Shown: one piece after another, positions 25,601 through 47,620 of the stretch
Layout of the letters: the number at the start of each line of letters is the position of its first letter
Position numbering within the stretch: the stretch's first letter is position 1
Source of the DNA: Polytrichum commune
Taxonomy: Eukaryota; Streptophyta; Polytrichopsida; Polytrichales; Polytrichaceae
NCBI GenBank assembly: GCA_950295325.1
Contig: OX485803.1
Coordinates: 16,492,001 to 16,556,000, forward strand
DNA: 64,000 nucleotides
Direction of reading: 5' to 3'
Program-made: the position numbers and the translations under genes
Notes under the pieces: model-generated
Database searches by the model: none
Seen by the model: the letters and a program-made list of their open reading frames with translations, nothing else
Told to the model about the DNA's origin: nothing

Positions 25601-28600
25601 TTGTTGCTGATGTTGGTTTATTTATACTTTGCAGCATGTCTTCAAAATGGAACAAGAAGAATATACCAAGGAGGCCATCAACTGGAGTTACATTGACTTT
25701 GTTGATAACCAAGATGTCTTGGATCTCATTGAGAAGGTGCATATGGGAACTTGTTTTTACCCTTTATTCTGTATTTTTGAGAAGGCTGCACTGAATATTT
25801 GATATGGTGATATCGAACGTAGCCCTGTGCTAAGGTTTGTTGGATGTAGAAGTTTGTGGTTCTATGAGCGTTGGTTGTTTCTAGTAGATTGCATGTGTGA
25901 AGATGTAACAACCTTACTCAATTTGGTGTTCTGTGTGCAGAAACCTTCTGGTATCATTGCCCTTCTTGATGAAGCCTGGTATGTATACATCTCTGTGGGA
26001 TGGGACATTGCTTTGAATTGCTATTGAACATATTTTAAGTCCTTCTAGCATGTAATCAAATAAATTCTGTCAGTGGTAGAGATTGTGCTTCAAGTTAAAG
26101 CCTTCAACATTTGTGAGGAATTATATATCTATTGAATCAGCAGGGATTTATTTAAGGATCTTAATGCATTTTGTGGATTTGCAGCATGTTCCCTAAGTCT
26201 ACAAATGAAACCTTTGCAACAAAGCTGTTTCAACAATACAGAAACCACAAACGTCTAAGCAAGCCAAAGCTTGCTCGTACTGACTTCACTATAAGTCATT
26301 ATGCTGGTGATGTAAGCATTGCCACTAAACCTGCATTCCATGTAGGAATGGTTCCCCGAACTAGTATGGTTTGAATCTCTGTACACTGTGCTAAGGAAAA
26401 TCTATCACCTTTCCTGGATGGCTCTTTGTACATATTATCCTTGTCTGTCTGAATAACTTGGCAGCTTTCAGTAGTGATACTTATTGTGAGATGCATTTTC
26501 TCTGTCCAGGTCACATATCAAACGGAGCTATTTCTTGATAAGAACAAGGATTATGTTGTTGCTGAGCACCAGTCGTTGTTAGGATCTTCAACATGCCCTT
26601 TTGTTGCAAGCCTTTTCCCCAAATCTGCTGATGAAGGCTCTAAGTCTTCATACAAGTTCTCTTCCATTGGTACTCGCTTCAAGGTATGTCTATTTTACCA
26701 GCTGATTGCAAGATCATTGTTTCAAGTGTGTGCTGTGTTTTTGCCTAGAGGATGCATCAGTGGAAAGTGATTGATAATGGCCTTCTTCTATGTGCTGAGT
26801 GAAACGTACATTATTTTGACTTTAAAACCATTGTAAGGTTCTTCATTTTTGTCCATATATAGTTATCTTATTCTGAATGAATGTGTGTGCAGCAACAATT
26901 GCAAGCATTGATGGAGACACTTAACACAACAGAGCCTCATTATATCCGCTGTGTGAAGCCCAACATGCTGAACAAGCCTGGTCGATTTGAAAACCAGAAC
27001 GTCATTCAGCAGCTTCGATGTGGTGTAAGTTTTATCAATTTAATGAGGTTATTTGTTTTTTCTCAATTGAGCAATGTAGTAGTCACTTACTAAGATTTCA
27101 CGTCGACCTTGTGTTCAATACATCACCCAGTCCACTGATCACCACATATTCACTATGAGCTTAAAATCCCAACTGATTTCATGTGTTTGTGCAGGGTGTG
27201 TTGGAGGCTATTAGAATCAGCTGTGCAGGTTATCCAACAAGGAGGACATTCTACGAGTTTCTTGATCGGTTTGGCTTTCTTGCTCCGGAAGTTCTTGAGG
27301 GCAAGTGAGTAACAACATGCAGCGGATGAGCTAGCTTCCATATAGTTTTGAATGCCTGATGCGGTCACATTATATATGTATGTGTGTACTTTGTGGAGTG
27401 GCTTAGATTAATCAACTTGATCAGGTTTGTGAGCAGTTTCAAAAGTAAGAGGCTCTTTTTCCAATGACTGTAAATTTTATCGCATTGCTTTTAATCAATT
27501 GTGAAACCGTTCTTACAAATTTTCGAATTTCATTTGGGTGTTTGTAGTATGCAAAACAATTTGAACTGAATGATATGTTGGATTTTTTGTTCTGATGTCG
27601 CAAGTTTTGGTGTTTTGTCAGCTATGATGAGAAGGTTGCTACTGAGACTCTTCTGAAGAAGATGGATCTTAAGAATTACCAGGTGCATACATCTTGTTGT
27701 CTTTTATTTTGCAGGAAGTTAGTGAAATTACTGCCTGCTCTTTAGATACATAATAGTGATGAGATTTACTATCATACAGATTGTAATGATGAAGCAATGT
27801 GCACTTCTGGATGCAGCTTGGTCAAACCAAGGTATTCTTGAGAGCTGGTCAAATGGCAGAACTTGATGCAAAGAGAGCTGAGATGTTGAGTAATGCTGCA
27901 AAGAAGATTCAACGGCAGGTTCGGACCTTCCTTGCAAGAAGGCATTTGATTGCCATGCGTAAAGCTGCTGTCACGATTCAGAAATACTGGCGAGGTATGA
28001 ATCTTGTGTTCAACATCATGATCACTTTGACAGGAATTGTATGAATGTTGAATGTCCTTGTATTATGGGCACACTTTTTCTGAATTTCTTGGTTTCACCC
28101 TCAACAGGAAGGCTTGCACGCAAGCGGTATCAGAAAATGCGTCAAGAGGCTGCAGCAATTTGCATCCAGAAGAATGTCCGTATGTGGCTTGCCAGGAAGA
28201 AGTATATTGAGACAAAAGAAGCTGCCATCAAAATCCAGTCTGGATACCGAGGTATGGCTGCACGCAAGGAGCACCGCTTCAGACGTCAGACAAAGGCTGT
28301 CATCATTATGCAGGTGAGTGAGCAACATTCATTGAAAAGGTTAACCCTTGTTTCAGCATTATTTGAGAATTTACTATATTTAGCTTTCAATTTCAGGATG
28401 TGGTACCCAGTAGTAAGAAATTGGAGATTAATGTCTGTTGTTGCTGCCTAAGATTTCTAGTCCAGGATTGGTTTGTCTGAAGACAAAAGAGTTTATTTTG
28501 GAGGAGGATCTATTCTTGTAGACTAATGTTCATTACTTGGACTTGATTGCAGGCAAGGTGGCGTGGGTATAAGGCTCGTTCGCAATTCAGGAAATTGGTT

Positions 28601-42780: not shown

Positions 42781-45722
42781 CAATCACAATGACCTCATTG
42801 TGCCTACTTTGATCCACCAAAGACAGAGCTAGTTCTCTAAACCACCAAACTCTTGTGGCTCCGCAACTATAAAATGCAAAGCAATTTCAAAACCAACCAA
42901 ACATGCCCATCATTGACACTCCTAAACTTGGATTTACCTGCACCCAGATCTATATACTATAAACCCAATTATGCCCAAAGCCAACCACAAATCCCACTCA
43001 CACAATCCCGAAGCCTCATTGCTTCGTGCATCAAGCAAAGCATAAATTCAAACAACCTCATCGGCCCGAAATTTGAACATTAATTATCATGTCATGGCTC
43101 ACTTTACAACACCTTCCGTTTTGAAGAGTGGTGCTTTTTAAAAGTGAAGCTCTAATTAATTATGCATCCATGTTGAAATTCATACGCTTGTTTTTTTGTA
43201 CGTGTTTGTGTAAATATCAAAGGCATTGTGGACAACCTTATGCACATGTAGTTTTGGGTGAGGCATTCAAGCTAACCTTTCCACAACTGTTTCAAGATCA
43301 TTATTCTCTCACAAAGTGTTGAATGATGTCTTCACCAAAAAAAACTTGCATCACAAGCTCGAAGACTCTTAATTTTGGATAAAAGTTCTTTTGCTGTGAT
43401 ATTTCTCCCACTTAGAGGAGCACAAGGACATGTTTTGCACCTCCAATGTAGGGGACGAATTGTGTTTGCGCAACATCATAGACTACCACTACTTGGGCGT
43501 CAAAGTGTTCAACACACGGCAGTGGATATTCTACCACTCATCAACATGCACCTATTATATGACCAAGGACCCAATTGCACTAACTTGAGGTTGTTGATGT
43601 TGCGGTTCAATGATGTGTACAAGCTTCAATCCAGTCCAAACATCCTACTCATGCTTCAAAAGATAGAGGTTTGCTTGTCTTTCTCAATCTTGCAACTGAC
43701 CACATTGCACTTTGCACACACAAATGAAGGAAACACAATGTGACTTTCCACCAATTGATTATGGATATGGGGGTTTAGGATGAAGAGTATAGAGTTGAGG
43801 AGTTGGCAAGAGGAAGATGTTGACCGTGAGCACAAGAATCTCGATTTGTTCCAAGAAATGAGAGAACAATTGAACGAAGGGAGATGTCATGCCATCTAAC
43901 TTATGGGTACAACGGTGAGTGCATCGAACCACAATGTACTTTATTCTTTGGTCGAGTATTAATGAACACATAAATGTACTTAACTCTCATAGCACTATGG
44001 ACTAAGGTATGTTGTCCTATTACCGAGGGGGTATCCTTTCACCGAGTTCTAGGGAACAATTCCAAGAATAAGGTCCTAGGACTCCCACACTTCCCAATGC
44101 AATGAACTAATGAGGGAGGGGAGGTGTCAAAAAGTGACGTGGGGCCTGAAGGAAATTTGAAGCACTTACATGTGAGAGGCAAGTACTGAAAATAAGAACA
44201 CAATCTCTCTAATTATGATAAAGGTAAGGATGATTTCAAGGACAAGAATTTTCCTTCCTTTTCCTTTGCTATGATTGGTTGGCCAAGGTGCCATATTCAA
44301 GACCCATGGTGAGGGCATGTAGAGCCAACTTAGTGTGTAATTAGCTCATTGGGTGACAATTCCAAAACATATGATGAGTGTGTAAAGAAAAACTTAGAGG
44401 TAATAAGTAAACAACATTTGATTCTATGGTAGGAATTGTTTAGTAATAAAATGTGACCTTCTGAAATCTATCATGGCACTCTCTAGAAAAATGTTTTTAA
44501 CTCATAACTAATTTGAAAATCATAAATTAAAATCAAGAAAATTATGACATATTTTCATTCATTTCCTCTACGAAGGAAAATAAATTCATGCCAAATGCCA
44601 ATGTACATGAATAACCAAAATCGTTAAAGAGTTAGTTCTCCATACGAGAACAACATACCTTAATATGATATTTTAATGTGTAGCTACATGTGTACAAGAG
44701 AATGGACTATGTCTTCAAATTGAAGTATTCCACGCTCAATAATGAACACAATTGGGAGGATCTATGTATTTTCAATTTAGAAACCAAGAATCATGCACTT
44801 TTTGTAACCATAAGCAAATCATGAGAGGTTTGAATCTAAATCCGATTTTTTGTTGATGCTTCATCATAGATTTGTTATTGAAACAAAAGGTTTGTGGTGT
44901 AAATCTAATCAGTAGAAGTTGAAGAACATGAAAATAATAATAACAAATAACAACCGCATACGTTATATAGGTGAATCTGGGTATAAATAATCAACATCAA
45001 TGATGGTATGAATGAATCTAACTATGGGTGTCAATAATCAACATCAATAATGGTATGAATGAATCCAACCATGAGTATCAAAATTGTGATACTCGTCAAA
45101 CATTGCTATTTGGTGTGTATATCAAGGTGAGAGAACATTTATGTACATTAGTTATAATTTGAGTCGATGTCATTCTAAACTATATTCATACTAGGGGAAT
45201 TTTACTCAGGTATGGAGGTTCTTTCATGCTAGACATGCATGAACAATATCTTAAACAAAAACATCATCAAATATCCATACCCTACCGATATTTCAAAATG
45301 TGAAATCCTTATTATAGATACCCAATATGGATAATTATTAACCAATAATTATAGTTATTGTCAATAATTATAATTATAATATCATGTAATTATAAATCAT
45401 TATAGTTATAGTTATAGTTATAATTAATATTGATATTGATAATGATGAACTATGGTATTATTATAGATACCATAATTCTTGGGTAGCAATGATGAACTTG
45501 GGACCATGTGTTCACTCGCTACTCAACCCTTAATACGTGATCCATGTTCAGTTGCATTAGCAAGGGGAAAGGGGGGGCGGGGGGGGCCGAGAGCCAACAA
45601 TCGGATTGACTGAGGGAAGGGGCTAGTCAAGTTGTTTGGTCTTCCATGGTGGCAATGGGTCATGCATTTGCAGGAGCGGTGAGTTTGCATGCTCATTGAG
45701 TGATGTGTGCAGGGAAGGGTGT
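42781..45722. other. Intergenic with a possible decayed coding fragment near 43.4 kb
   Basis: The 122-codon frame at 43375-43743 and an overlapping frame (EEHKDMFCTSNVGDELCLRN at its start) are both mildly protein-like; neither matches a family I know. AT-rich simple sequence near 45360-45450, and a G-rich run near 45568-45588. Confidence 0.4.
44700..45140 (+). repeat. Dispersed repeat D, copy 2, with a 47-bp tandem duplication
   Basis: 44700-44970 matches 7728-7990. From 44986 the unit AATAATCAACATCAATGATGG...AATGAATC repeats with a 47-bp period. 45033-45140 also resembles 1330-1460 (TATCAATAATCCACATCAACAATGG...GGTGAGAGAA). Confidence 0.6.
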
Positions 45723-45800
45723 GGCCAAGGATGTTCTACGAACAGACACTCTATTCACTCCAGCCTCCTCCGGAGACTGGAGTTTTTCTTCTCCTTCTTC
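45723..45800 (+). repeat. Left terminal inverted repeat of the Rep-type element, with hairpin
   Basis: Reverse-complement match to 47325-47400 over about 75 bp, with a small gap near the outer end and a few substitutions. The internal hairpin ACTCCAG (45757-45763) pairs with CTGGAGT (45777-45783) around a 13-nt loop that itself contains CTCCGGAG. Confidence 0.85.
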
Positions 45801-46049
45801 TGTGTGCAGGGCACGTTGACTCTGGGGACGGGGGAGCACATTGTTTTCTTATGGAAATGGAAGACAACATTCATCCGATGTTGTCTGAAATCCTTTGATC
45901 TCGTAGGCAAGTGCCAAGGTAGTGTGCCTACATCATTGTAGTGTTGTTTCTCAGCTCTCATGAGTACACAATGTTTTTCCATTATAACGGTGTTGAAAAA
46001 ACATTCATTAAGAGTTTTTTTAATTTAAGAATAAATCAATCTGTCGTTG

Positions 46050-47368
46050 GCACATTGTGTGTGATGTCACCTAGGATGCAAACTCGCACTTGTCTTTAGT
46101 ACATTGAGGCTTTTGTGACAATTGTTGTGGGTGGAATGGATGTGGACATTGTGCTTCTTGTGAATTTGAGGAGGTTTATCAAGGATCATTGTATTGCCGG
46201 ATGGTGCTCCATGGAGAGGGGGCTGGGCGTTGACCTACAAGCATTTCCAAATGGTGGTCAAGCAGAGTTTTTCTAGTTTTCCAGTGTTGAAAAAGAATAT
46301 CAGGGTGTGTTTGGGATAGGATGAGAGTCCTTTGACAAGGCATGTTGTCTCATGCAAGAAGTTGAGGGATGAAGGTTCACCTACCTTCAAGGGCATGATC
46401 GGGTATTGTATGAAGGACAATAATGGATAGGAGAAATTCGAGTTTGTTCATCACAATGTATCAACCAAGGACACAAATGACAACAAAATGAATTAAGGTA
46501 GAGGGGCACATTCCCGCTCGGGTCCTTAAACCGCTCACTAGACCTATCCAAACAAGAGGTACATTATAGCTTCGTACCTCAAATTTCTATGTAATCATGG
46601 TGTACATTTTCGGGGTGAGTGGTTTTGGGTACCCCTATGAGTTCTCCTTCCAAAATTCATAACTAATTCAATATTAATCCAAAATTAATTATTCCAATTG
46701 GTCCAATTTCCAATGTACTTTGCACATCTTCCAAGATTGATTCCCCCTTAATAACTCCCCAATGAACATGCCAATCTGAAATTCGAGCGGGAATGTGCCC
46801 CTCTACCTTACACGAAGTTTGGGCAGGTGGGTTTTTGCAATCATGCGAGCATTTCTCATAGCCACATTTCACAAACGGCTCATCAACGGGCACAATATCA
46901 TATGAAGAAGCACTTACGTGCTAGTCTCACCAACGATCCATTTCATAGGTGCAAAAAACGGACAACTTTACCCAAATCCGACTTGGGTCATTCCATTCAA
47001 GTCGGCTGGCATAGTAGATGTGAGGCGAGTTGCTTCCATATGGAAAAATCATGATGAATCCTCATGATATTCTAATGGAAGACATCTCCGATGTTTGCTT
47101 TGATCCAATCACGGGGGTGTCCAACATGAGGTACTTCAACACACAACAAATTGCACTTGACCATCACGTGGAGGGAAGGCAAATGAATCCTAGTGTACAA
47201 GAGGCCGCCCGTGTTGGGATCGATGATGATGATGCCCCGGACCTTACCTTTGCAAATGTGTGTGAACGGCCAAGGATATATATCAATGGTGCAAGTGGAT
47301 GTTATGGTGTCGATCGACCTCATAGAAGAAGAAGAACTCCGGTCTCCGGAGGAGGCCGGAGTGAATAA
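46050..47368 (+). pseudogene. Rep-like HUH endonuclease, broken by frameshifts, stops and a nested insertion
   Basis: Reading + across frames gives FVTIVVGGMDVDIVLL and WCSMERG, then, one base shifted inside a G run near 46218, TYKHFQMVVKQSF, then FKGMIGYCMKD and EKFEFVHHNVSTKD. Past the insertion come KFGQVGFCNH, SHSHISQTAHQRAQYHMKKH, GQLYPNPTWVIPFKSAG, DVRRVASIWK and MMNPHDILMEDISDVCFDP. E-R-G then H-F-Q (46242-46250) fits Rep motif II (H-hydrophobic-Q); G-Y-C-M-K-D (Tyr 46404-46406, Lys 46413-46415) fits motif III (catalytic Tyr, Y-x-x-K), in the same frame. Two in-frame TAG codons (46317-46319, 46428-46430) and at least two further frame shifts break it. Expected role: nick and join single strands to mobilise the element. 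No helicase domain is visible. Family assignment rests on motifs and remembered homologues. Confidence 0.6.
46496..46808. mobile_element. 313-bp TA-flanked TIR element (MITE) inserted in the Rep-like gene
   Basis: Ends AGGTAGAGGGGCACATTCCC and its reverse complement agree without mismatch for about 25 bp. TA flanks both sides (46494-46495, 46809-46810). Rep-like protein similarity stops at the left edge (DTNDNKMN) and resumes at the right edge (TKFGQVG); excising the element with one TA leaves the frame continuous, which supports a TA target duplication as in Tc1/mariner-type elements. The interior is non-coding. Confidence 0.75.
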
Positions 47369-47400
47369 AGTGTTTGTTCGTAGAACATCCTAGCTAGGCC
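47325..47400 (-). repeat. Right terminal inverted repeat of the Rep-type element, with hairpin
   Basis: Inverted copy of 45723-45800. The hairpin ACTCCGG (47336-47342) pairs with CCGGAGT (47356-47362). The central stem pair is G-C here and A-T at the left end, a compensatory change that keeps the stem. Confidence 0.85.
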
Positions 47401-47620
47401 ATGCCTTACGGCAGTGGCGTTAGATGTAAAACTACCCGACCTCATTATGTAATGTTATGGCCACTTTGCATGCTCAAAGGAAGAGGCGGCGTTTGGCCTC
47501 TAAGTTATATGTAGACACAAACATAGGAACTCCTCCCACAGTCGGCCGTCACTGGGGGCCGTCAGCCATTGGCCCAAACTGCAACGGCAGTGGTAAGGGA
47601 CTTGTGAGAGGGCAAGCTTA

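Follow-up and report, generated by a model that had tools for sequence, protein, structure and literature searches.

A decayed Replitron-type Rep gene probably flanked by two separately inserted LINE fragments

Features of the locus

The window, by which we mean the whole 64-kb stretch of DNA that was analysed, contains a Rep-like gene at 46064 to about 47260 that lies between two inverted repeats. These repeats (45728–45795 and 47324–47391) are 68 nt long, 91% complementary and 1528 nt apart (BLAST E = 9.5e-22), a similarity far beyond chance, and they enclose the gene as the initial annotation had described. What that annotation overlooked are the TTC-rich tails of the repeats with their own duplications, a MITE nested in the gene, and the dispersed nature of the repeat arms. 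The features are listed below, with the evidence for their assignment in brackets.

45704–45714, no strand: first copy of the target-site duplication that flanks the left LINE piece, TGTGTGCAGGG (boundary-adjacent duplication)
45715–45800, plus strand: left arm, 5'-truncated LINE 3' end with TTC-rich tail (genome copies, truncation series, alignment to LINE copy L048)
45801–45811, no strand: second copy of the target-site duplication that flanks the left LINE piece, TGTGTGCAGGG (boundary-adjacent duplication)
46064–47260, plus strand: decayed Replitron Rep gene (tblastn with the 289-aa protein of relative L003; frameshifts, stops, interruption by the MITE)
46239–46481, plus strand: Replitron_HUH domain segment with H-F-Q and Y-C-M-K and two internal TAG codons (PF21859, 36.2 bits)
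46494–46810, no strand: nested MITE of 317 bp with perfect 27-bp inverted ends, young (inverted repeat; genome copies)
47315–47323, no strand: first copy of the target-site duplication that flanks the right LINE piece, CGACCTCAT (ATGAGGTCG on the minus strand)
47324–47436, minus strand: right arm, 5'-truncated LINE 3' end in the opposite orientation, with TTC tail (alignment to L048)
47437–47445, no strand: second copy of the target-site duplication that flanks the right LINE piece, CGACCTCAT (boundary-adjacent duplication)

A search of the window against Rfam at gathering thresholds gave no match.

The Rep-like gene and its relatives

The gene begins with an ATG codon at 46064–46066, which aligns with the start codons of other copies and opens the peptide M-S-P-R-M. 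When the 289-aa protein of the better-kept relative L003 was used as a tblastn query, it aligned to the window in five segments (46115–46246, 46206–46490, 46785–46973, 46942–47046 and 47045–47260) with 43–66% identity, across frameshifts and stops. Reading the three frames in turn yields M-S-P-R-M, VTIVVGGMDVDIVLLVNLRRFIKDHC, ALTYKHFQMVVK, GYCMKDNNG and YPNPTWVIPFKSAG. The initial annotation had placed the Rep motifs in one frame; this holds for H-F-Q and G-Y-C-M-K-D, which are both in frame +2 and are separated by a TAG (46317–46319), but not for E-R-G, which is in frame +1.

HUH endonucleases are recognized by an H-U-H/Q motif and a Tyr-x-x-Lys motif, and the window copy has kept the corresponding residues (H, Q, Y and K). 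In a whole-genome profile search, the Pfam model Replitron_HUH (PF21859) matched at 46239–46481 with 36.2 bits, against a curated cut-off of 28.5. Among seven window pieces compared with Pfam, a single one, a 36-aa segment with the YCMK motif, hit a Rep model, and the one family that this segment matched was Replitron_HUH (PF21859, E = 0.0039). The C-terminal model Replitron_C (PF21860) gave 61 matches in the genome at E ≤ 1, and the frameshifted window copy is absent from these, though tblastn does align its Replitron_C region. Given the frameshifts, the stops and the insertion inside the gene, the window copy cannot function and is dead. The proposal of a decayed Rep/HUH gene from a small transposon is thus borne out by the Replitron_HUH score, and by the additional Replitron_C match of L003. 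No helicase domain was found in the window pieces and the 289-aa frame of L003 that were scanned against Pfam.

The profile search of the 408-Mb genome with PF21859 gave 109 matches at E ≤ 1, the window copy among them, and no match in any of 14 control genomes. The 15 best other loci were retrieved together with flanks of about 1.5 kb; all 15 matched the DNA of the window gene, at about 72–81% in the main stretches, and the closest relatives found for the window copy have 77% identity (about 390 bp aligned) and 81% identity (312 bp aligned). L003 carries both domains in a single frame of 289 aa (Replitron_HUH, 2e-15; Replitron_C, 1.6e-8), and a PDB sequence search with its protein returned no chains. 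The H, Q, Y and K residues are all retained in 11 of 19 tabulated loci, including the window. Differences from L003 in the best aligned stretch of 18 loci number 822, 661 and 1557 at codon positions 1, 2 and 3, and this excess at the third position indicates that most of the divergence among the lineages dates from a time when they still coded for protein. Between L003 and L043, the closest pair, the differences are spread evenly over the three positions (65, 63 and 64), as expected of dead copies.

Since H-U-Q and Y-x-x-K motifs are common to several Rep groups, the gene might be regarded as an insertion of a Helitron, geminivirus-like or other CRESS Rep rather than of a Replitron. The only Rep model that matched any of the seven window pieces is Replitron_HUH, however, and within Pfam the 289-aa frame of L003 matched Replitron_HUH and Replitron_C and no Helitron or other Rep model at E ≤ 1, which makes such an origin very unlikely. 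Helitrons resemble the Replitron assigned here in being transposons driven by an HUH endonuclease, as stated in PMC10741241 and PMC13231165, and differ in that no Helitron Rep/helicase domain occurs in the 289-aa frame of L003.

The termini of the Replitrons were not located in DNA searches with two window stretches, L002, L003 and L043 (40 candidates scored per search), in which homology ended at or near the ORF; nor were a target-site duplication and direct terminal repeats of the window Replitron itself found. The exception is the pair L003 and L043, which have about 330 bp in common upstream of the start codon, and in L003 this stretch adjoins a repeat with many near-identical copies. The copies compared share little beyond the ORF, and the Rep lineage of this genome might be a Replitron variant whose ends differ from those described, though they would not be the inverted repeats of the window; this appears unlikely to us. 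The repeat of about 380 bp that adjoins L003 (positions 700–1081 of that locus; G000:C1:54374045-54374426) is 96–100% identical across 38 scored places and was found three times as a pair about 7.35 kb apart; it may represent the LTR of an LTR retrotransposon that was active recently.

The inverted repeats as LINE 3' ends

A genome search with the left arm, in which 40 of 783 first-look candidates were scored, yielded 41 matches, one of them the window itself. The best 24 other matches were retrieved with flanks of about 1.5 kb at both ends. By the left-arm search, the repeat occurs once in 23 of these loci and twice, in the same orientation, in the remaining one (L040); in all 24 it runs into a TTC-rich tail. 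The 5' starts of the pieces vary, giving a series of nested truncations with measured lengths from 83 to about 1000 nt, and a variable 5' start combined with a fixed TTC-rich 3' tail is the form of 5'-truncated LINEs. Long copies carry an open frame upstream of the tail, which in L048 is an ORF of 1788 aa with RVT_1 (4.3e-25) and RNase_H (3.5e-11) domains. In the stretches upstream of the LINE in L041 and L042, all open frames are 143 aa or shorter.

Both arms of the window align to the 3' end of L048 just before its tail (84% and 80%), and compared with four genome copies the left arm is 89–94% and the right arm 84–91% identical. The two arms are 3' ends of an abundant LINE, each truncated on its 5' side and inserted on its own, and not the ends of a Rep transposon. 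They share with LINE retrotransposons that encode reverse transcriptase and RNase H the 5' truncation, the TTC-rich tails and the target-site duplications, and as LINE sequence they are unrelated to the Rep gene. The abundance of the family is illustrated by a C-terminal piece of its protein, which gave 4797 first-look candidates, 150 of which were scored.

The ORF of the long LINE copy (L048:865-6228; G000:C6:28567300-28574600) also contains a PCIF1_WW domain (E = 6.2e-10); PCIF1 is a cap methyltransferase. A literature search on PCIF1 and retrotransposons returned no such element by title. The C-terminal pattern PD...IEFTY...K..KY in this ORF resembles a restriction-like endonuclease. A 258-aa C-terminal piece from copy L038 had no Pfam match, and the PDB sequence search with the LINE piece returned two chains only, with E of about 0.7.

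Target-site duplications

The two arms have separate flanking duplications, which lie within one base of the judged edges and measure 11 nt for the left arm and 9 nt for the right, whereas the outer flanks of the two arms have at most 6 nt in common. Distinct duplications, with none in common outside both arms, point to two separate insertions. To put this in proportion, 26 LINE pieces (from the 24 other loci, plus both arms of the window) were compared with 650 mismatched pairs as a control. A duplication was counted as boundary-adjacent if the copy on the tail side started no more than 6 nt ahead of the tail end and no more than 4 nt past it, and if the copy on the 5' side ended no more than 12 nt ahead of the judged 5' start and no more than 8 nt past it. 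Of the 26 pieces, 7, both arms included, had such a duplication of 9 nt or longer, against none of the 650 controls; for at least 7 nt the figures are 11 of 26 and 2 of 650. The 15 pieces in which no boundary-adjacent duplication of at least 7 nt was found may be old copies or may have misjudged 5' edges.

A looser test, based on the longest string shared by the two flanks at any position close to the edges, gave at least 9 nt in 9 of 26 pieces and in 5 of 650 controls. It picked another 9-mer for the right arm and is superseded by the boundary-adjacent test. The flanks of the right LINE piece (47290–47460) hold, besides the target-site duplication, a second common 9-mer (CCATAACAT on the minus strand).

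Association of the gene with the arms

According to the initial annotation, the locus is a TIR-bounded Rep transposon, in which the inverted repeats of 68–75 bp are the termini and the Rep gene encodes the transposase. The geometry agrees with this, as the arms lie around the gene in inverted orientation and are 91% complementary. If it were correct, gene and repeats should travel together, a test that the annotation itself had named, and they do not: none of the 15 other Replitron loci has an inverted pair that encloses the HUH gene (E ≤ 1e-4, within about 1.5 kb to either side), and a tblastn match to the Replitron protein (E ≤ 1e-3, same distance) is lacking at all 24 further loci with the LINE tail. 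The alignment of the arms to the 3' end of a reverse-transcriptase element also speaks against termini of a Rep element, as do the separate duplications. With these duplications and without co-travel, the TIR-bounded element was rejected, and we consider it highly improbable. Near one of the fetched Replitron loci, L004, there is a LINE tail, just one, at a distance of about 1.2 kb. Two LINE tails in all turned up across the 64-kb window and both flank the Rep gene, which is a striking coincidence, at a locus that was picked for that look.

It could also be envisaged that the LINE tails served as surrogate ends and mobilized the enclosed segment as a composite, as the arms are inverted, 91% complementary and have their tails facing inward. 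The stretches between arms and gene (45812–46073 and 47205–47316) were matched at the window only, among 40 scored places per search (out of 89 and 98 candidates, respectively), which argues against such a composite. Moreover, LINE mobilization starts from the 3' end of a single RNA, with no role for paired inverted ends. A composite of this kind is extremely unlikely.

Once the arms are seen as LINE pieces, the window element is left without TIRs, which agrees with the Replitrons. According to PMC10741241, these have no TIRs, short direct terminal repeats of 5–11 bp and a target-site duplication of 2–8 bp. The same lack of enclosing inverted repeats was seen within about 1.5 kb at all 15 other Replitron loci. 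Further agreement lies in the match of the HUH Rep gene to the Pfam Replitron model PF21859 and in the presence of Replitron_C (PF21860) in its relative L003; no difference has been shown, and the window copy is dead. From these profile matches and alignments, the window Rep gene belongs, in all likelihood, to a known group of transposons, as an ordinary copy that is now dead. In PMC10741241, Replitrons are reported from mosses, liverworts, lycophytes and ferns and are said to be lacking in seed plants. The genome thus fits a seedless plant, in line with the earlier impression of a bryophyte-like genome, but the view that a Rep element in such a genome would be little described was too strong, since moss and liverwort Replitrons are in print (PMC10741241, citing Craig 2023). 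With its 109 HUH matches, a plant-like genome with many decayed Replitron genes is added to those described. The removal of a false lead also counts, in that nothing found at this locus supports a new class of TIR-bounded Rep transposon. Replitrons were reportedly discovered in the work of Craig 2023 (PNAS).

A history of layered insertions

The MITE inside the Rep gene has perfect inverted ends of 27 bp (46494–46520 and 46784–46810), and 39 other scored copies are 97–100% identical to it (40 of 222 candidates scored). This high identity among the copies indicates that the MITE is probably the youngest layer of the locus.

We are highly confident that a Replitron inserted and decayed here, that two LINE pieces arrived separately on either side of it, and that the MITE landed inside the gene. 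The Replitron would have brought in the gene for an HUH endonuclease (Rep). By analogy with other HUH systems, this enzyme, while the element was alive, would have nicked DNA and become covalently joined to one strand through its catalytic tyrosine; PMC13231165 likewise describes HUH endonucleases as cutting one strand and remaining tyrosine-joined to it. Nicking would have been followed by transfer or replication of a single strand, via a single-strand intermediate. After the Replitron copy had died, two 5'-truncated LINE copies would have inserted on the two sides of the gene, in opposite orientation and each with its own target-site duplication. Target-primed reverse transcription is the mechanism by which LINEs insert, and the two arms may be supposed to have arrived in the same way. 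Insertion of the cut-and-paste MITE inside the gene would be the most recent event. The identities of each to its other copies suggest that the Replitron came first, then the LINE pieces and last the MITE, with the reservation that the families need not have aged alike.

The inverted repeats would then be a mere consequence of two LINE tails in opposite orientation. Such tails can mimic transposon ends, a trap for repeat annotation that is exposed by the separate target-site duplications.

Elsewhere in the window, an open frame of 162 aa at 27963–28451 shows, by eye from its translation, IQ-motif-like repeats, and it is perhaps an exon of a calmodulin-binding protein.
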